A DNA stretch of 64,000 bases, from assembly GCA_040757595.1 (NCBI GenBank), contig JBFLWP010000003.1, positions 62,001-126,000 on the forward strand, given 5' to 3'. Origin of the DNA: Nitrospirota bacterium (GTDB taxonomy: Bacteria > Nitrospirota > Nitrospiria > Nitrospirales > Nitrospiraceae). Positions 19,076 to 58,024 of the stretch are shown piece by piece (position 1 is the first letter of the stretch; each line of letters begins with the position of its first letter). The position numbers and the translations under genes are program-made. The notes beneath the pieces were generated by a model. That model ran no database searches. It saw only the letters and a program-made list of their open reading frames with translations, and had not been told where the DNA came from.

Positions 19076-19167
19076 GGAGACTCCTCCTCTCGTCTTCCTA
19101 TCGGCTGGTTCCCGCGAAACCTTGAGGGAAAGCCGGGCAGCCGCTGCCCGAGCCGGGAGGGCGCCGG

Positions 19168-28517: not shown

Positions 28518-29135
28518 ATGAGACGACTGGTCGCCTTGCTCCTGGCTCTTGCGGTCTGCCCGTCCCTGGTGGCCGCCGCCCCGAAGGACCGGGAGCGGTG
28601 GGATTCCCGGTACGGCGGAGAGGGCTATCTGTTCGGCACGGACCCGATTCCCTTCCTCGCCCAGCACGTCCACCTGCTTCCGAAAGGCAAGGTCCTCGAC
28701 CTCGCCATGGGCGAGGGGCGCAACGGGGTCTATCTGGCGGCCCAGGGGTTTCAGGTCGTCGGGTTGGACATCTCCGAGAAGGGGCTCGCCAAGGCCAGGA
28801 AGCTCGCCGAGGAGCGGCACGTCTCCATCGAGACCCGCGTCGCGGACCTGGAGGAGGTGCAGCTCGAGCGGAACGTCTACGACGTAGTGCTCTGCACCTA
28901 CTACGTCCAGCGGGACCTCTTCCCCCGGATCAAAGACGCGCTCAAGAGCGGCGGGGTCGTCGTCATTGAGGATTATACGGTTGAGTACCTCAAATACAAC
29001 CCGTCCTTCCCGAAACCCTACGTGCTCCAGACGAACGAGCTCCTGGAACATTTCAAGGACTTCAAGATCCTCCGTTACCAGGCTTACGACGACGGGAAGA
29101 CCGCCTACGCCAGCCTGATCGCCCAGAAGCCCTGA
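28518..29135 (+). CDS. Exported SAM-dependent methyltransferase-like protein (TehB-like)
   Basis: A 205-residue protein. The N-terminus is a clear Sec signal (RLVALLLALAVCPSLVAA, cleavage near AAA). The mature part has the methyltransferase fold: VLDLAMGEGRNG as motif I near residue 60, VVGLDISEKGL as motif II, DVVLCTYYVQRDLF as motif IV. The ERWDSRYGGEGYLFG start resembles TehB and thiopurine-type methyltransferases. An exported member is odd because SAM is cytoplasmic. Either the signal is a membrane anchor, or the start is further downstream (no good ATG is seen before KDRERW). Confidence 0.7.
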   Translation: MRRLVALLLALAVCPSLVAAAPKDRERWDSRYGGEGYLFGTDPIPFLAQHVHLLPKGKVLDLAMGEGRNGVYLAAQGFQVVGLDISEKGLAKARKLAEERHVSIETRVADLEEVQLERNVYDVVLCTYYVQRDLFPRIKDALKSGGVVVIEDYTVEYLKYNPSFPKPYVLQTNELLEHFKDFKILRYQAYDDGKTAYASLIAQKP

Positions 29136-29167
29136 CCGGAACTTTTGTCCAGGATGTCGGTTCCTCC

Positions 29168-29195
29168 TTGATTCTGTCGGTTTGCGTGTTACAAT
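29168..29195 (+). promoter_or_regulatory. Promoter before the small ORF and the Lon-like protease pair
   Basis: TTGATT (29168-29173) and TACAAT (29190-29195), 16 bases apart. A GTG follows six bases later (29202). Confidence 0.55.
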
Positions 29196-29201
29196 AAGGC
29201 C

Positions 29202-29345
29202 GTGATCGGGAAGAGACCTGGCGAATCCTCTCCGAATCCCCTGCTCTCTCCCCCACGACGTTTTGCCGGTCGCTCCACCGGCGGCCCCAGACGGCTGGGC
29301 CCGCAAGCTGGCGCCACCGTGAGAGTTCTGCGCCGCGGCGGGTGA
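29202..29345 (+). CDS. Candidate leaderless small ORF (47 codons)
   Basis: A GTG-started frame six bases after a good -10 box, ending TGA at 29343-29345, encoding a basic Pro/Arg-rich peptide of 47 residues with no known similarity. Support is only the promoter position, and GC-rich DNA often has open frames of this size, so it may be a leader sequence rather than a gene. Confidence 0.25.
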   Translation: MIGKRPGESSPNPLLSPPRRFAGRSTGGPRRLGPQAGATVRVLRRGG

Positions 29346-29420
29346 AGGGCCGTTCCTCTCAAGCCCCCGCCCGGACTTGACGATACTCTTGTTAGGACGC
29401 AGAGCACGGAGGGGCCACCT

Positions 29421-29666
29421 GTGGGCGACGCACGAAAACAACCGAGACCGCTCAGCCACGACGAAGCCAAGGCTGCCGAAGCCGCGTTTCAAGGCCGGCC
29501 CTTCAACGAGGACTGGTCGGAATCCGCACGGACGATCTATGACGGTCTGATGGACGCGATGCGCAAGCGGAGCGGCATGTGGAGCGACGTCCCGTTGTTG
29601 GACGATCGGTCGCACGACGGCGAGACGGAACTCGACTACGTCACATCCTATGGCGAAACGGAATGA
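29421..29666 (+). CDS. Small acidic protein of unknown function
   Basis: An 81-residue protein with a GTG start, helical in the middle (DEAKAAEAAFQGRPFNEDW) and acidic at the end. No family known. Its end overlaps the protease gene start by 17 bases, so the two are probably translated together. Confidence 0.45.
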   Translation: MGDARKQPRPLSHDEAKAAEAAFQGRPFNEDWSESARTIYDGLMDAMRKRSGMWSDVPLLDDRSHDGETELDYVTSYGETE

Positions 29667-30363
29667 CATGACCCAGCGGACGACGAGGGCGGAGAACCGG
29701 GCCAAGCGCGGTTCGTCCCGTCTGTGGTGGTCGTTCGGCCTGCTCGCTTCCCTGATGCTGCTCGCGCCCCAGGGTGCGGGGGCCAGCACGTGGCCCTCCC
29801 ATCGGGAGCAACTTCTCCCGATCGTGGGCGTGACCGTAGGGCAGAGGCCGACCGGGATCGTGACGAACCTCATCCTGTCCTTCGACGATCGGGGGGATCA
29901 TGAAGGCCTGGTCGTGCAGTTCCGCTCGACCCCCGGGCGGTTCTCGCGGATGGCCCAGACCGCGGTCGAGCAGGCGATCTACCGAACCGCCAAGGCCGCC
30001 GGCCTCTCCACCGACTCCTGGACCGTGGTGCTCAGCGTGCCTTACGAAGGCGTGACCATCTACGGGGACAGTCTCTCCGCGATGGTGGCGCTGGGGGTGG
30101 TCGCCCTGGCCAAGGGGGACTTCATTCCGCCCGACCGGGTGATGACCGGGACCGTCGCGCCGGACGGGCACATTGCGCCGGTGGGTGCCGTGCCGCTGAA
30201 GGTCGCGGCGGCGAACGAGGCGCACATGCACCGTGTGCTGGTGCCGGACGAGGTGGATGTCACCGACGGGGATTGGAAGACGCCCTTCCTCGTGCAGGTG
30301 TCTCCGGTCGGATCGGTCAGCCAGGCGTATGAGGCCTTGACCGGCCGCGCCCTCAAACCTTGA
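29650..30363 (+). CDS. Exported Lon-type (S16) protease domain
   Basis: A 237-residue protein: an N-terminal signal segment (SSRLWWSFGLLASLMLLAPQG) followed by a Lon proteolytic domain without ATPase. YGDSLSAMVALG holds the catalytic Ser in the LonB-like GDSxSA form, and VGAVPLKVAAANEA the catalytic Lys, with MTGTVAPDGHIAPVG between them as in the MTGxIxxxGxVxPVGG block of Lon. ATG 29650 overlaps the previous gene; an in-frame ATG at 29668 is an alternative. It ends just before repeat copy B. Periplasmic Lon-like domains are known in families such as YlbL, but there with a PDZ domain, which is missing here. Confidence 0.78.
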   Translation: MAKRNDMTQRTTRAENRAKRGSSRLWWSFGLLASLMLLAPQGAGASTWPSHREQLLPIVGVTVGQRPTGIVTNLILSFDDRGDHEGLVVQFRSTPGRFSRMAQTAVEQAIYRTAKAAGLSTDSWTVVLSVPYEGVTIYGDSLSAMVALGVVALAKGDFIPPDRVMTGTVAPDGHIAPVGAVPLKVAAANEAHMHRVLVPDEVDVTDGDWKTPFLVQVSPVGSVSQAYEALTGRALKP

Positions 30364-30364
30364 C

Positions 30365-30487
30365 CGGGCGTTGAAAAAGGCCTCCAGCTTCGTTCTCGCA
30401 TCGCTTCCACCCTCAACGTACAACTGAAGAGTACGCCTCGGGTGTTCACTCGCTGCGGCCTCGCTGGGCGGCCTTTTTGAACGCCCG
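30365..30487. repeat. Palindromic dispersed element, copy B
   Basis: A 123-bp element between two convergent genes. Outer arms CGGGCGTT (30365-30372) and AACGCCCG (30480-30487) pair exactly; after one mismatch the arms continue AAAAAGGCC opposite GGCCTTTTT. The T-run after the GC stem would allow termination of both neighbours. Confidence 0.85.
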
Positions 30488-30506
30488 TTAGTCGTTTGTC
30501 CAACCC

Positions 30507-32753
30507 TCAGACTAGCAGCAGGCCGGCGCGCCGCGCCTGATCCCAGGCGTCGGTGCGCAGCAGCCGGTCGAAGGCGCGCGGTCCCCCAAGGGGATAAGCC
30601 GCGCGCACATCCCGGAGCCAGGGATAGCCCTCTCCCCTCTTGCCGTGTTGCGGCGTCGCCTCCCGGATCAACTCCACGAGCCAGGCCGCCTTGTCCGGCG
30701 GAAGCGTCAGCACGACGTCCTCGGTCCGGCTGGGCAGAATCGCGCGGGCCCGATGCCGTCCGGCCAGCTCGACCACCGGCGTCCCCCCGATCCAGACGAA
30801 CCGGCGCTCCCATGATTGCGATCGCCGCTCGTGGCCCGTACGGAAACCGCCGGCCCCGTCATCCGCGAGCCGGGGCTGAGCCAGAGCCCGAGCGACCCAA
30901 TTCCGCGGGACAGGGGGCCGTGCCAGCCGACGGGCAGCCGGATGCTTGAACCAAGCCCGCACGTCGGACGCGAGGCTCTCCCCCTCCATGTAGGCGTCGA
31001 GCGCCAGCCGCAACCCGTTGCCCAGCCAATCAGGGGCCTGCCCGACCGGATCCCTGTGCGTCAGATCGTTCTCCGCAAAGCCGCCGAAGGCCGGCCCGGT
31101 GAGCCGGATCCCGTGGACGGTCGGGTCCAGCCCGACGGGACTGTGGGCGGTTGCCACGAACCGGTGCCAGAAGGCCGACTGGATCAGATCGTGGGCGAAG
31201 AGCTGCCGGACCCGCTCCAGACTCTCCACGGTCTCCGCGATCGTTTCGCCGGGGAAGCCGTACATGAGATAGGCGTGGACCAGGATGCCCGCTCGGCGGA
31301 AGGCCGCGGCGACGCGCGCCGCCTGATCCACGGTGATCCCCTTCTTCATTGCGGCCAGCAGCCGGTCGCAGGCCGTTTCCAGACCGGCCGTGACCGCGAT
31401 GCAGCCGGAGGCGGCCAGCAGCCGGCAGAGGTCCGGCGTGAAGGCCTCTTCGAAGCGAATGTTGCCCCACCAGGAGATCGTCACGTCCCGCTCCAGCAGG
31501 GCCAGCGCCAGCCCCTTGAGCCCCGCGGGCGGCGCGGCCTCGTCCACGAAATGGAAGCCCCGCCGCCCCGTCTCGGCGAGCAGAGCTTCGACCCGGTCTG
31601 CCAGGATCTCCGCCGGCGCGGCCTCATACCGTTCGATGTAGTCCAGCCCCACGTCGCAGAAAGTGCATTGCTTCCAATAGCAGCCGTGCGCGACCGTCAG
31701 CTTGTTCCAGTGTCCGTCAGACCAGAGCCGGTGCATGGGGTTCAAGGTGTCCAGGATCGAGAGGTACCGGTCGAGCGGCAGGCCGTCGTAGGTCGGCGTC
31801 CCCAGCTCGGCCATGCCGAAGTCCCTCGCGCCCGCCCCGTCCCGCCAGACCACGGTCCCCTCGACGCGCAGGAAGGTCCGGCAGAGCTCGGTCTGGTCGC
31901 GCTTCCCCTGGAGGTGCTCGAGCAGGCAGAGGAGCGGCCGCTCCCCGTCGTCCAGCGTCACATAGTCCACGAGGTCGAAGACGCGCGGGTCTTGCAGCCG
32001 CCGCAGCTCGGTGTTCGCGTAGCCGCCGCCCAGCACGATCCGCACCGACGGCTGCCGCGCCTTGAGGGCCTGGGCGATCCGGAGGGCTCCGTAGAGGTTG
32101 CCGGGGAAGGGCACGGTCAGCCCGATGGCCGAAGGTCCCGTCGCCTCCACGTGCCGCCACAGGGCCTCCAGCATCAGCTCGTCCGTCAGGCTCGGAGGCT
32201 CGGCGAGCGCCTGGGCGATCGGATCGAACGAGGAAGCGGATCGGCCTATCTGCTCCGCGTACCGGCTCAGGGCGAACTGCGGAGCGATCGTCTCGCGGAT
32301 GAGGTCGGCCAGGTCCTCCAGGTACCGCGTCGCCCAGTGCTTCGCCCGGTCGGCGGAAGAATCGGCACGGAGGCCGGGAGGCTTGGGCTTCGCGGATGCG
32401 AACCGGGGCCCTTGCGGGAGGAATCCGCCCTGGCAGATGCGGGGCGCCAGGGCGGGGTCGGCTCCCTGCAGGAAGGCGATCACCGGCTCGATCGTCGCGA
32501 GGTAGTCTCGCTCGAGCGCCAGCATCTGTCGGGCCTCGCCGGGCAGGCTCCCCGGTCGAGCCCGAATCTGCGCGAAGGCCCGCGCGAGCCCGGACCGCGA
32601 GAACAGCGCGAGCGCCAATTCGATCCCCAGGTCCGCCTGCGCGACGGAGTAGCCCCGCGACCGTAGGAAGCCGGTCAGGTAGGCGGTGGACGGATAGGGG
32701 GTGTTCAACTGGGTGAGCGGCGGGATGAGGAGGAGCAGAGAGCCCTGGGACAT
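30507..32753 (-). CDS. Cobalamin-binding-domain radical SAM protein
   Basis: A 748-residue protein. The N-terminal half (residues ~1-290) contains PSTAYLTGFLRSRGYSVAQADLGIEL, in two parts, and VRIVLGGGYANTELR, features of B12-binding (DUF-type) N-terminal domains of this group; the exact cobalamin site is not obvious. The radical SAM barrel starts with HGCYWKQCTFCDVG near residue 360, a C-x4-C-x2-C cluster motif. WGNIRFEEAFTPDLCRLLAASG, in two parts, and LMYGFPGETIAET follow as typical barrel blocks. The C-terminal 150 residues are a separate domain. Substrate unknown. Converges on repeat B with the protease gene. Confidence 0.75.
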   Translation of the reverse strand: MSQGSLLLLIPPLTQLNTPYPSTAYLTGFLRSRGYSVAQADLGIELALALFSRSGLARAFAQIRARPGSLPGEARQMLALERDYLATIEPVIAFLQGADPALAPRICQGGFLPQGPRFASAKPKPPGLRADSSADRAKHWATRYLEDLADLIRETIAPQFALSRYAEQIGRSASSFDPIAQALAEPPSLTDELMLEALWRHVEATGPSAIGLTVPFPGNLYGALRIAQALKARQPSVRIVLGGGYANTELRRLQDPRVFDLVDYVTLDDGERPLLCLLEHLQGKRDQTELCRTFLRVEGTVVWRDGAGARDFGMAELGTPTYDGLPLDRYLSILDTLNPMHRLWSDGHWNKLTVAHGCYWKQCTFCDVGLDYIERYEAAPAEILADRVEALLAETGRRGFHFVDEAAPPAGLKGLALALLERDVTISWWGNIRFEEAFTPDLCRLLAASGCIAVTAGLETACDRLLAAMKKGITVDQAARVAAAFRRAGILVHAYLMYGFPGETIAETVESLERVRQLFAHDLIQSAFWHRFVATAHSPVGLDPTVHGIRLTGPAFGGFAENDLTHRDPVGQAPDWLGNGLRLALDAYMEGESLASDVRAWFKHPAARRLARPPVPRNWVARALAQPRLADDGAGGFRTGHERRSQSWERRFVWIGGTPVVELAGRHRARAILPSRTEDVVLTLPPDKAAWLVELIREATPQHGKRGEGYPWLRDVRAAYPLGGPRAFDRLLRTDAWDQARRAGLLLV

Positions 32754-35239: not shown

Positions 35240-36096
35240 CGATCGCATTTCTGGGAACCGGCCTGCTGGGCCGGCCCATGGCGGAGAAGCTGGCGGCGGC
35301 CGGGCATGCGGTCGTCGCTTACAACCGGACCGTCGCCAAGGCTGAGCCGTTGTGTCAGGTCGGCGCCGTGGTCGTCGCTCGGCCGGAGGAGGCGGTCCGT
35401 GCCGCCTCCTGCACGATCCTGATGCTGGCCGACGCGCGGGCCATCCGCCAGGTGCTGCTCGAGACTCCCGCGCGCCAGGAGCTGGCCGGCCGCACCGTGA
35501 TCCAGATGGGTACGATCGGCCCGCAGGAGAGCCGGGCGCTCCAACGGGAGGTCCTCGCGGCGGGCGGCGACTATCTGGAGGCGCCGGTCCTGGGCAGCAT
35601 CGCTGAGGCCAAGGCCGGCAGGCTGCTCGTGATGGCGGGCGGAACCCAGGAGCAGTTCGCCCGGTGGGCGGACCTGTTCCGAAGCTTCGGGCCGGAGCCG
35701 CGTCTGATCGGCCCGGTGGGCCGGGCCGCCGCGCTCAAGCTGGCCCTGAACCAGTTCATCGCGGCGGAGATCGCGGCCTTCTCGCTCAGCCTGGGGCTGG
35801 TCTTGCGGGAGGAGATTCCGGTGGAGACCTTCATGGGGGTGCTGCGGGAGAGCGCCCTCTATGCCCCGGTCTTCGACAAGAAGCTTCCGCGCCTGCGCGC
35901 GCGCGACTATGCCAATCCCAACTTCTCGACCCGACACCTGCTGAAGGACGTGGATCTCTTTCTCGCGGAAGCGGAGACGCTCGGGCTGGTCACCGAGAGC
36001 CTGGCCGGTGCCCGTGCCCTGTTGAGCCGGACGGTCGAGCGGGGCCTGGCCGAGGTGGATTACTCGGCCGTGTATGACGCGATCAATCCGCGATAA
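35236..36096 (+). CDS. NAD(P)-dependent 3-hydroxyisobutyrate dehydrogenase-like oxidoreductase
   Basis: A 286-residue enzyme. FLGTGLLGRPMAEKLAAAGH at the N-terminus is the Rossmann loop with the GxGxxGxxMAxNL pattern, YLEAPVLGSIAEAKAGRLLVM near 113 the substrate loop, and ALKLALNQFIAAEIAAFS near 170 carries the catalytic Lys. It belongs to the beta-hydroxyacid dehydrogenase family (gamma-hydroxybutyrate/glyoxylate reductase-like). Coupled to tag by a four-base overlap. Confidence 0.87.
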   Translation: MTIAFLGTGLLGRPMAEKLAAAGHAVVAYNRTVAKAEPLCQVGAVVVARPEEAVRAASCTILMLADARAIRQVLLETPARQELAGRTVIQMGTIGPQESRALQREVLAAGGDYLEAPVLGSIAEAKAGRLLVMAGGTQEQFARWADLFRSFGPEPRLIGPVGRAAALKLALNQFIAAEIAAFSLSLGLVLREEIPVETFMGVLRESALYAPVFDKKLPRLRARDYANPNFSTRHLLKDVDLFLAEAETLGLVTESLAGARALLSRTVERGLAEVDYSAVYDAINPR

Positions 36097-36098
36097 CC

Positions 36099-36250
36099 GG
36101 ATGTTGAAAAAGGCCTCCAGCTTCGTTCTCACCACCCATTGCACGAAGCCAAGCAATGGGTACCCGCCGTCTCCCTGCGACGTACCAGAAAACGTACGCC
36201 TCAGTCGCCGTACTCCCTGCGGCCTCGCTGGGCGGCCTTTTTGAACATCC
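36099..36250. repeat. Palindromic dispersed element, copy C
   Basis: A 152-bp element after the oxidoreductase gene. Outer arms GGATGTT (36099-36105) and AACATCC (36244-36250) pair, followed by AAAAAGGCC against GGCCTTTTT. It contains the inner hairpin ACCCATTGC/GCAATGGGT also seen in copy A, and the AACGTACGCCTCAG type stretch of copies B and D. Confidence 0.85.
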
Positions 36251-36275
36251 TGACCTGTGTTTTGCCGTCATCGGT

Positions 36276-36304
36276 TTGACATGAAAATCATAAGTCACTA
36301 TCCT
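36276..36304 (+). promoter_or_regulatory. Promoter of the restriction endonuclease gene
   Basis: A perfect TTGACA (36276-36281), 17 bases, TATCCT (36299-36304), 86 bases before ATG 36391, in the AT-richer region. Confidence 0.65.
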
Positions 36305-36390
36305 TCCGTGGCCAATGCCAAATCAAAGGCAAAGTCGCCAACGTTCCAGCAAGCGCTTCGGGGCGGGAGAGCTTTTTTAGTTGGTCCGCC

Positions 36391-37314
36391 ATGTCCAAGA
36401 AGCAGATAGCTCCATTGAGAGATGCGCAGAGATTTTGCAGGGGTGAGATTGAGCGCATGCTCAAAAACTCTCAGACCAAGGTCATCATGCCCGTGATCAC
36501 GCTTGGGCTGCTTCGTGAGTTCTTAAAAACGGGCAGGCAGGTATTCAGCGACAAGGAAATCGGGGGCACCTATAAGGCTGCCGTCAAGGACCTGAAAGAC
36601 TATCTCCATCACGATGTCCATTTTGGCGCCAAATACTACGACGCCTATGGAAGCCGAATGTCTCGTTACAGCGTCCTCAAGCCGGTTGGGCACCTAAAAT
36701 ACAAGCTGATGCCGCCCTACACAGAGGTTGCGCAGCCCCTTTGCGAGTGGATTCCTTCCAGGGTCAATCAGCACATTCAAGAGCGTTTGGGTGTGATCCC
36801 ATCGCTCCAGGATTCAAGTAATAGAGTGGCTCTGGCCAGTGACAAACAGCGGCTTTTGGGTCTGATTCATGAGCAGATCAACAAGACGGCGGCTAACTTT
36901 GAGATTTTCAGCTTTGCCGTCCTGAAGGTCCATTTGGAGAAGTTCGCGTGCAAGATCTATCGTGACACACGAACTGCTGCCCACGACCAAGGAGTTGATC
37001 TTTCCACCAATTTCGGCGTCGTTTATCAGGTCAAAAAGCTCCAAATCAGAACGGAATCGGAAGCTGACCAGGTGTATGCTGAGCTCAAACTTAACTTTGA
37101 CAACAAGCGCCTTCAAGATGGCAATGTGATCTTGGTCATTGATGACATCTCAAAGGGAGTGAAGAAATACCTCATCGACATGAAAGTGCAGTCTATCAGC
37201 AGGCAGGACGTCCTGAAGCTTGCGGCCAATTTTGACGAACCTGAGGACAGACAGAAGGTGCTACGAATTGTTTATGAGGAATTCCGTCGGGAGTACTCGA
37301 GCAGAATCGAATGA
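36391..37314 (+). CDS. HaeII-family-like type II restriction endonuclease (orphan)
   Basis: A 307-residue protein in a region clearly poorer in G+C than its surroundings. Residues ~205-222 read GVDLSTNFGVVYQVKKLQ, which resembles the D-x(n)-QxK active site of HaeII-type nucleases (there, as I remember it, a GLDMWANFG...QIKHL block). The C-terminal EEFRREYSS also fits that memory. No DNA methyltransferase lies next to it, so it would be an orphan nuclease or an inactive copy. I recognise the family from memory only. The region from 36258 to 37680 differs in base composition, a sign of recent acquisition. Confidence 0.5.
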   Translation: MSKKQIAPLRDAQRFCRGEIERMLKNSQTKVIMPVITLGLLREFLKTGRQVFSDKEIGGTYKAAVKDLKDYLHHDVHFGAKYYDAYGSRMSRYSVLKPVGHLKYKLMPPYTEVAQPLCEWIPSRVNQHIQERLGVIPSLQDSSNRVALASDKQRLLGLIHEQINKTAANFEIFSFAVLKVHLEKFACKIYRDTRTAAHDQGVDLSTNFGVVYQVKKLQIRTESEADQVYAELKLNFDNKRLQDGNVILVIDDISKGVKKYLIDMKVQSISRQDVLKLAANFDEPEDRQKVLRIVYEEFRREYSSRIE

Positions 37315-37339
37315 GTTGTCAGGACTTGTGCGGCCAGGA

Positions 37340-37642
37340 TTAAGCCATATTCGGAGAAACGATTTGCTCAACCAAATCTTCTGCCATGCGGAGTGCTTTT
37401 TCTTCCGACACAAAGTGTTTCTCAAACTTTGTGATGTAGTCTACTGGGTAATTCCCCTCCACCACGCAGGTGGTTGCTCCGCCAAACCCATCAGCTTCTA
37501 CGACAACGACCTCGTCTTCTAGTGCATAAAGTGGTGAGAGGTAAAGGACAGCGTCCGGAGCACTGATCCCCATGTCCCGACGAATCGCATCAACTTCCGC
37601 CTGCAGGCGCTTGAGTTGTTTTAGCTGCTGGTCTCGGCTCAT
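37340..37642 (-). CDS. Small protein of unknown function in the AT-richer island
   Basis: A 100-residue protein with an N-terminal coiled-coil start (QQLKQLKRLQAEVDAIRRDM) and a strand-rich middle (DEVVVVEADGFGGATTCVVE). No family known. It converges with the endonuclease gene and shares its unusual base composition. AGGAGGG precedes the start. Confidence 0.5.
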   Translation of the reverse strand: MSRDQQLKQLKRLQAEVDAIRRDMGISAPDAVLYLSPLYALEDEVVVVEADGFGGATTCVVEGNYPVDYITKFEKHFVSEEKALRMAEDLVEQIVSPNMA

Positions 37643-37681
37643 GGCTTAGCCCTCCTAGTGGCTTACTAACAATCCAAGCCG

Positions 37682-38710
37682 CTATCGAGGCTTCTTGGAT
37701 ACGAACGTGGGGAAGATGCCCTGCGTGTCGGGCACGGTCTGCACGTCCCGGAAGCCTGCCGCCTCCAACTGACCCTTCACGACTTCCCTCGGCTTCACGA
37801 GCGACTCCCACAGGGCTCCGACCAGCACCGTGAGGACCACGGCCTGGAGCCGCCAGTGCGTCAGGTTGATCCGCCTCCAGACATACTCGGTGTGCGGCAC
37901 GACGTGGCCCGTGACGAAGACCCCGCCGGGCTTCAGGGCTCCGTACACGTGGCGATAGAACCGCTCACACTGCTCGTTGGTCAGATAGATGTTGAGGCCG
38001 GAGGAAGTCAGCAGGTCGAACTCCTCGCGGACGGGCGGCTTCGAGAACCCCGGCGCGAGCGCGTCGCCTTCGCGCAACTCGACTACGACGTGCGGCGGCC
38101 GGCCGGCAGAGAGGAGGTCGGCGAAGGCTTGCGCGCCTTTCAACGCCTCCGGGTCCTTGTCGATCCCCACCAGGCGCGCGCCCGTCGTCAGGCGTCCGAA
38201 GTCCAGGGCCAGCAGGTCGCGCATGCGGCCGCAGGGCAGGCTGGCCAGCACGGCTCCGTCGCGGAGCAGGGGCTGGGTGTGCCGCTGGTGGAGCCTGGCC
38301 CGCTCCTGCGTGGCGAGGAACAGCGGGAACGTGAAGAAGGCCAGCTTGTCGAAGAGACAGAGGGCGCCCTCTCGCTCCTCTCGCCTGAGCGTCGCATGGT
38401 AGTCGGCGTCGAACAGGAGGTCGGTGATCCGCCAGTTGAGCCCGCGCGCGCAGAGGAGGAAGCGGCCGACCTCGCTCTTGGCCGCCTCCTCGGCGAGCGA
38501 GCGCAGGAAGGCCCTCGGCTCCTCGAACCGGAGGCCGCAGGCGGTGCCGAACTCGGCCCGCACCTGCTCCATCAACGGTTCCAGGCCGAAGCCGTACTTG
38601 GTCTCGAACCGGCGCGGGTCCAGGGTCTCGACCCGCTTGGCCGCGCCGTCCAGGGCCTGCTCGATGGAGTTGGCCTCGGCGAGATGCGACTGGAATCGTT
38701 CGGAAGACAT
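37682..38710 (-). CDS. SAM-dependent methyltransferase-like protein
   Basis: A 342-residue protein. The N-terminal ~150 residues are helical. The C-terminal half has a methyltransferase fold: the motif I region is ASLPCGRMRDLLAL, motif II is LVGIDKDPEAL, then REGDALAP, DLLTSSGLNIYLTN as motif IV and LKPGGVFVTGH as the post-motif. The layout with a long helical N-terminus resembles methyltransferases acting on lipids or natural products. Its start is nine bases after a TGCTAGAAT box (leaderless). Confidence 0.68.
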   Translation of the reverse strand: MSSERFQSHLAEANSIEQALDGAAKRVETLDPRRFETKYGFGLEPLMEQVRAEFGTACGLRFEEPRAFLRSLAEEAAKSEVGRFLLCARGLNWRITDLLFDADYHATLRREEREGALCLFDKLAFFTFPLFLATQERARLHQRHTQPLLRDGAVLASLPCGRMRDLLALDFGRLTTGARLVGIDKDPEALKGAQAFADLLSAGRPPHVVVELREGDALAPGFSKPPVREEFDLLTSSGLNIYLTNEQCERFYRHVYGALKPGGVFVTGHVVPHTEYVWRRINLTHWRLQAVVLTVLVGALWESLVKPREVVKGQLEAAGFRDVQTVPDTQGIFPTFVSKKPR

Positions 38711-57860: not shown

Positions 57861-58024
57861 TACAGTACAAGGTGTATCTTTGGATATCGGCCGCGGCGCC
57901 GTCAACCTTGAGCCAGGCGAGGAGGCGTCGCGCAATTCTACGGTGACCGGCGGCGGGCGTTTGTGATACACAAGCAAGCGGGAGCCGGTTTGGCCCGGCC
58001 TCTCGCTTGCGTCGGAGTGCGGAG

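Follow-up and report, generated by a model that had tools for sequence, protein, structure and literature searches.

A predicted exported, single-domain Lon-type peptidase and a small order-restricted partner in a candidate sigma28-linked operon of Nitrospirota

Comparative analysis of a 64,000-nucleotide stretch of Nitrospirota DNA (hereinafter the window; G000:C3:62001-126000, from a 3.37-Mb assembly) supports the presence of a small operon in which the gene for a predicted exported peptidase of the S16 (Lon) family, P0001, follows that for a small partner protein, P0002 (Table 1). By profile and alignment, the one domain of P0001 is an S16 (Lon-type) peptidase domain that has the Ser-Lys dyad, and the protein has neither an AAA+ ATPase nor a PDZ domain. 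P0002 typifies a domain family so far seen only in one order and undescribed in the four family libraries that we used; applied to genomes, order and family here denote the ranks assigned by the genome-collection tool. The promoter that matters for the pair is most likely a sigma28/FliA-type candidate. Our working account, to which we give slightly less than an even chance, is that of an ATP-independent envelope peptidase of the sigma28 regulon, with a cytosolic partner that would tether or regulate it. The window's five relatives in the named collection are Nitrospira or Nitrospirota MAGs.

Table 1. Positions in the window of the features of the two-gene locus
Feature	Coordinates	Strand	Remarks
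Predicted sigma28/FliA-type promoter, TCAAG-N16-ACGATA	29359..29385	+	35 bases 5' of the partner-gene GTG; alignment with five loci
Ribosome-binding site GGAGGGG, partner gene	29408..29414	+	read directly from the sequence
Partner protein P0002, 81 aa; order-specific domain at residues ~5-50, then acidic C-terminal tail	29421..29666	+	
Predicted exported single-domain S16 Lon-type peptidase P0001, 237 aa	29650..30363	+	
P0001 signal-peptide hydrophobic core and AxA-type site, residues ~24-45	29719..29784	+	by eye
Catalytic Ser141 codon, within YGDSLSAM	30070..30072	+	aligned to LonB GDS
Catalytic Lys184 codon	30199..30201	+	aligned to LonB Lys

The assignment of P0001 to the Lon-type proteases, proposed in an earlier sequence-only reading of this DNA, is borne out by profile, by the closest solved structure, and by predicted fold. 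In Pfam searches, residues 125-201 match Lon_C (PF05362) above its cut-off (25.5 bits against 21.1; E 1.1e-5), which places the protein in peptidase family S16 by profile. The closest solved relative by sequence is the protease domain of A. fulgidus LonB (1z0b; E 1.5e-9), and the top NCBIfam matches are LonB-type models, scoring far below their full-length cut-offs. An AlphaFold2 model built from 60 sequences (mean pLDDT 87.5, low before residue 50) retrieves Lon as its best Foldseek match (E 4.2e-13), and comparison with B. subtilis LonBA (8dvh) by VIA-align gives Z 22.2 and rmsd 2.1 over 170 residues, the LonA structures 6on2 and 1rr9 lying within 1 Z of 8dvh. The predicted fold is that of S16 and occupies residues 52-235. 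Pfam searches up to E 1 found neither AAA nor PDZ in P0001, and since the fold match begins at residue 52 there is no space for an ATPase or a PDZ domain, as the same reading had held.

Aligned to 1z0b, Ser141 and Lys184 of P0001 coincide with the LonB dyad. Among 75 homologues the serine is kept in 73 and replaced by His in two, and the lysine is kept in 71, with Gln in two and gaps in two (one a contig end, the other a frame-broken gene); both residues are retained in close relatives and are near-invariant down to ~40% identity. The His and Gln replacements fall in the same two paralogues (G134:C78 and G036:C24), a joint loss that fits a working dyad in the remaining homologues. These two copies (loci L146 and L147) are apparent pseudoproteases, which retain upstream the sigma28-type motif described below. 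The site had been called LonB-like, and this holds for the position of the dyad but not for the surrounding motif, which in LonB is [E/D]GDSA[S/T] (PMC2605481) and in P0001 is YGDSLS. The homologues show YG[D/E]SLS, residue 140 being D in 36 and E in 29, and residue 142 L in 71, of 76 rows. RadA and ComM domains are also found among the structural matches of the model; as the Lon-fold parts of these proteins are taken to be structural or binding domains, the S16 fold alone is no proof of proteolysis by P0001. That the S16 domain here is structural or binding, and not a protease, would accord with those matches, with the unusual motif, and with the two paralogues that have lost both catalytic residues; we nevertheless judge it improbable, given the near-invariance of Ser and Lys and their loss only in tandem.

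P0001 is predicted to be exported, with its peptidase domain outside the cytoplasm. This prediction, made also in the earlier reading, draws on hydrophobicity and on the recognition by eye of a hydrophobic stretch near the N-terminus with an AxA-type site after it. The model places a low-confidence helix at residues 25-37, and in 63 of 74 homologues the hydrophobicity of some window within the first 90 residues reaches 1.6 or more; for P0001 itself, over its first 160 residues, the peak window falls at 137-153, within the S16 domain. An alternative start for P0001 is the ATG at 29668, just 3' of the stop codon of the partner.

Close homologues of P0001 are patchily distributed (36 of 175 genomes of the family at E 1e-30, in 15 of 22 genera), and a profile search at E 1e-20 recovered 26 of 148 genomes of the phylum, every one within the order. 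At E 0.001 a match exists in 138 of the 146 genomes sampled from the order, a count that includes paralogues of ~30% identity; S16 copies at about this identity are present in many genomes of the order. The genome under study encodes a second S16-type copy, 31% identical, on contig 11 (G000:C11:98141-98695). Across 60 fetched protease regions, in nine of which the protease is missing from the called genes, we found support for local synteny only and saw no single order-wide gene neighborhood for the protease. At seven loci of the second family (L144 9328-10608 and six others), a member of one gene cluster is oriented divergently from the protease; the one divergent gene that was scanned codes for an HD-GYP-like protein (DUF3391 plus HD).

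The partner gene is real by its homologues, by purifying selection (dN/dS ~0.07-0.12 in three pairs within genus g4), and by its GGAGGGG ribosome-binding site, its codon score being weak alone (+0.03 per codon). P0002 has no match in Pfam up to E 1, DUF6573 (PF20213) included, nor any in NCBIfam, PHROGs, or PADLOC, and searches of plasmids, phages, and viral contigs were likewise empty; titles and abstract openings in the literature yielded nothing on this protein or domain. The domain is a predicted helical hairpin of ~45 aa in the N-terminal half of the protein, with invariant residues (30 rows) that include D14, E15, K17, A18, G25, and Y40, followed by an acidic C-terminal tail of net charge -6. 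Its model (helices 13-24 and 34-52, low-confidence tail; pLDDT 73.7) has a best Foldseek match of E 0.97, and a PDB profile search up to E 10 was empty, which is not proof of a new fold. MAFFT had overlaid the domain on part of S16, but profile comparison gives no support for such a kinship (probability 0.1%).

At E 0.01 the P0002 domain is present in 135 of the 146 genomes sampled from the order. A 13-row profile recovered it from 76 of 245 genomes of the phylum, all 76 in the order; one genome of the order appears among the non-matches listed, 149 further non-matching genomes being outside that list. The domain is found as a stand-alone protein, at the N-terminus of proteins of ~225 aa, and with the protease. 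The second context is seen in many genomes of the order (e.g., loci L046, L047, and L066), where a P0002-type domain precedes a divergent DUF6573-like C-terminus; this resemblance is weak, with all three scanned proteins matching below the cut-off (E 6e-6 to 4.5e-4).

Eight of the 60 protease regions contain the P0002 domain, always adjoining or fused to the protease, which with the window makes nine loci across five genera. In seven of these (the window and G114, G027, G137, G150, G154, and G155) the domain gene immediately precedes the protease gene and has the same orientation, and in the window, G150, G154, and G155 the start and stop codons overlap or are no more than four bases apart. 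In two separate MAGs, G233 and G231, a single reading frame codes for the domain, a linker, a hydrophobic segment, and S16; the junction is open in both, the S16 half of the G231 fusion being broken further on. In the loci of genus g4, a candidate protease start lies 25-91 bases beyond the partner, that in G137 being a TTG. There (L094 7659-8651) a lone TAA separates partner and protease, which are in the same frame, and the vicinity offers neither an ATG nor a GTG as a start for the protease. The sequence ATGGGGTAA occurs at or just past the partner stop in the three g4 genomes examined. Fusion by stop-codon readthrough or frameshift in g4 is disfavored: by eye, the linkers of G027 and G137 differ at many residues, which we take to mean that the linker is either not coding or under little constraint.

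The domain is found in many places other than beside the protease, so its link to the protease is a trait of a subclade. The remaining 52 protease regions are without it, although little upstream sequence is present in at least one of them (L100), so that a few misses may reflect contig ends. Flanking genes for cation efflux, peroxiredoxin-like, and radical SAM proteins are partly common to genera g1, g4, and g37, whose pairings are therefore likely to share a single ancestral arrangement. In a quick 71-row tree, from which five fragmentary loci (the broken G231 fusion among them) had been dropped, pairing requires three clustered changes, a value as low as this being reached in none of 500 shuffles; the pairing may have had one origin with later losses. 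These same features feed another explanation, namely that P0002 is merely co-transcribed with a real exported S16 peptidase, its gene having landed upstream once in a subclade, with a chance fusion in one genus. The abundance of the domain in the order, usually away from the protease, the many proteases without it, the few tree changes, and the shared flanks all favor it. We hold it to be rather unlikely, as the pairing has been kept in five genera with tight or overlapping start and stop codons in four loci, and as the two MAGs with the fusion are separate and each has an open junction.

The fusion also bears on topology. Basic residues precede its hydrophobic segment, and by the positive-inside rule a basic flank stays cytoplasmic, which would leave the small domain in the cytoplasm and S16 outside. 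P0002 has no signal peptide by eye, so that it and the exported domain should sit on opposite sides of the membrane. This arrangement is pertinent to the proposal of the sequence-only reading that the protease is in an operon with two possible regulators or substrates. One partner stands, by virtue of the seven adjacent loci and the two fusions; the second does not, and the role of substrate is disfavored since in the fusions the partner is N-terminal, by charge cytoplasmic, and part of the protease. A related idea, by analogy, is that P0002 is a substrate or inhibitor that is cut or released on a signal. This is what happens to CalpT with the CRISPR-associated Lon-type protease CalpL, and operon order, small size, and that precedent would suit it. 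We think it very improbable, in view of the expected placement on opposite sides of the membrane, of the fusions, and of the PADLOC CRISPR-Lon models, which match P0001 weakly (E 0.015 or worse, and in the Lon part only) and P0002 not at all.

The earlier reading had also set two small ORFs before the protease, the first of them (29202) a leaderless candidate with a promoter six bases before its GTG. Here the evidence divides: the ORF at 29421, which encodes P0002, is conserved, and that at 29202 (47 aa) is not. The latter has a codon score of -0.41 per codon, against +0.20 for the protease, and its best tblastn match in nine related regions has E 0.37. A search of 175 genomes with 29136-29420 returned, besides itself, short weak pieces in nine (E 2.9e-4 or worse). 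On codon score, absent homologues, and position upstream of a better promoter candidate, we reject it as a gene. The promoter does exist as a sigma70-like site (TTGATT-16-TACAAT, 9/12; one match in 28900-30700, where 0.1 would be expected), its end lying six bases 5' of that GTG, but none of the weak pieces covers it, and the sigma28-type candidate is better supported. A structured leader RNA at 29202-29425 was likewise rejected (z-score -1.39; 20 of 200 shuffles fold equally well), and no Rfam family scored over its gathering threshold in the window. Just upstream of the operon, at 28518-29135, lies a gene for a TehB-like methyltransferase with an N-terminal signal peptide apparent by eye. 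Elsewhere, 36001-38000 has a G+C content of 0.54, against 0.63-0.71 in the other 2-kb steps, and is a possible island.

The sigma28-type candidate emerged from a MAFFT alignment of the window with five related loci of g4 and g37, in which CGATA upstream of the partner is invariant; each of the six also has TCAAG, separated from (A/C)CGATA by 16 or 17 bases, MAFFT having put that of the window apart. In the window, TCAAGN{14,18}CGATA has three matches against 0.13 expected; the other two, both on the reverse strand, precede the genes for a CBS-domain protein (19099-19125) and a CREG/pyridoxamine-oxidase-like protein (57885-57911). TCAAG-N14-18-CCGATA occurs 22 times in the genome under study against two in the reversed control, and the corresponding counts are 23 and 7 in G027, 29 and 6 in G114, 21 and 4 in G137, and 10 and 3 in G233. 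We examined the context of 20 of the 22 sites as 2.1-kb pieces: 19 fall outside ORFs scored as coding, and a downstream ORF was assigned for 16, of which 14 were scanned for domains. Seven of the 14 encode motility or c-di-GMP proteins, namely FlgM (E 1.3e-16), a YcgR PilZ protein, a second PilZ protein, CheR, a GGDEF response regulator, a GGDEF/HD protein, and an MCP; the other seven are not clearly related to motility (GAF, CBS, caspase-type, CREG/pyridoxamine-oxidase-like, globin, and pentapeptide proteins, and one without matches). The same genome encodes FliA (265.7 bits). The motif has the layout of the E. coli sigma28 consensus, TAAAGTTT-n11-GCCGATAA (PMC2859248), and for V. vulnificus PMC8032703 gives a -35 element CTAAAG and a -10 element GCCGATAA. 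The -10 element of the window has A in place of the first C, and the spacer is 17 in g4 and g37, against 15 or 16 in 18 of the 22 sites of the genome under study.

With any base allowed before CGATA and spacers of 13-19, the motif precedes the protease gene at 13 of 61 loci, a set made up of the 60 regions plus the genome's own paralogue, and the reversed pattern does so at one; eight of these 13 loci are unpaired, and at one of the eight, G189, the motif is far upstream. A looser motif score picks out 17 of 60 loci, against 1.45 expected from mononucleotide shuffles and three in reversed sequence. In the second family the strict motif is found at none of 17 loci and the looser one at two. At 40 genes elsewhere that encode the P0002 domain, the motif was found within 350 bases of none. 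Accordingly the motif goes with the protease and not with the domain, a result that also sits well with mere co-transcription of P0002.

The match between the motif and FliA is imperfect. FliA scores above cut-off in 128 of 175 genomes, and in a comparison of 48 hand-picked genomes, 24 of each class, the mean motif count is 20.1 in those with FliA (control 5.5) and 8.25 in those without (control 4.1); the p of 8e-8 on the excess is too good because the genomes are akin, and those without FliA still have some excess. In the paired loci G150, G154, and G155 the motif is absent, as is FliA over the cut-off from the genomes. The motif nevertheless stands at the protease in G137, G032, G233, G231, G135, and G211, where FliA is below cut-off or absent, the first two being 99% complete. 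TCAAG-CGATA could hence be the site of another regulator or sigma factor and not of FliA, as these six loci, the many motif copies in G137, and the non-motility half of the scanned downstream proteins would have it. We regard this as unlikely, for in the genome under study the motif precedes the gene for the anti-sigma28 factor FlgM and chemotaxis genes, its excess tracks the presence of FliA, and its layout is that of the E. coli consensus.

Taken with the FliA-type promoter, the working account would run as follows. P0002 and then P0001 would be transcribed as a two-gene operon from the sigma28 (FliA-type) promoter, so that the unit would be made together with motility, chemotaxis, and c-di-GMP genes. 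The small domain, from charge and hydrophobicity, would lie in the cytoplasm and the peptidase outside, where it might cut flexible or small envelope proteins without ATP, as proposed for YlbL. At the weakest step, P0002, in the cytosol, would tether or regulate P0001 at the membrane by acting on the N-terminal region of the peptidase or on its export. A stronger version, which we put forward as doubtful, is a two-compartment flagellar-regulon protease whose cytosolic, order-restricted domain controls or anchors the ATP-independent Lon-type peptidase across the membrane. Were it true, a cytoplasmic signal such as the motile state would set the cleavage of an envelope substrate, and, on the other proteins that carry it in the order, the domain would serve generally as a module for binding membranes or partners. 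To our knowledge, exported S16 peptidases without an ATPase have been little studied. Those described here form a set, from one Nitrospirota order, that has no PDZ; some members appear to be controlled by the flagellar sigma factor, and some are joined to a small undescribed domain. For nitrifiers this is a lead, open to test, on motility and on proteolysis in the envelope, and the gene fusion gives a first functional handle on a domain carried by most sampled genomes of the order.

Among known systems, CalpL, which is reported to be activated by a second messenger, and other CARF/SAVED-Lon effectors share with P0001 a Lon-type protease domain. These effectors have no ATPase and carry a non-ATPase sensor; Pfam found no CARF or SAVED domain in P0001. 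DUF6573 proteins (PF20213) are linked to the locus through the order's ~225-aa proteins, which join a P0002-type domain to a weakly DUF6573-like part, P0002 itself being without such a part. The two best-known ATPase-less exported S16 peptidases, YlbL of B. subtilis and SepM of S. mutans, are Gram-positive and PDZ-bearing, each with a membrane segment as well, and we know of no cytosolic partner domain for either. P0001 scores 15.8 bits against the YlbL/SepM family NF041438 (cut-off 200) and has no PDZ domain, with no space for one between its hydrophobic segment and the fold. It is like YlbL in being an S16 peptidase without an ATPase. YlbL is held to act outside the cell; for P0001 this is a prediction. 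According to PMC6051672, YlbL depends on both Ser and Lys, and removal of the small membrane protein YneA has been proposed as its task, its authors having seen no activity in vitro; it illustrates what an enzyme of this kind might do. Finally, P0001 aligns in its GDS and Lys with Lon protease domains (1z0b, 8dvh), but unlike LonA and LonB, which carry the AAA+ ATPase in the same chain, its 237 residues have no AAA+ module, it is predicted to be exported, and it belongs to a set with YG[D/E]SLS at the active site in place of the LonB motif.
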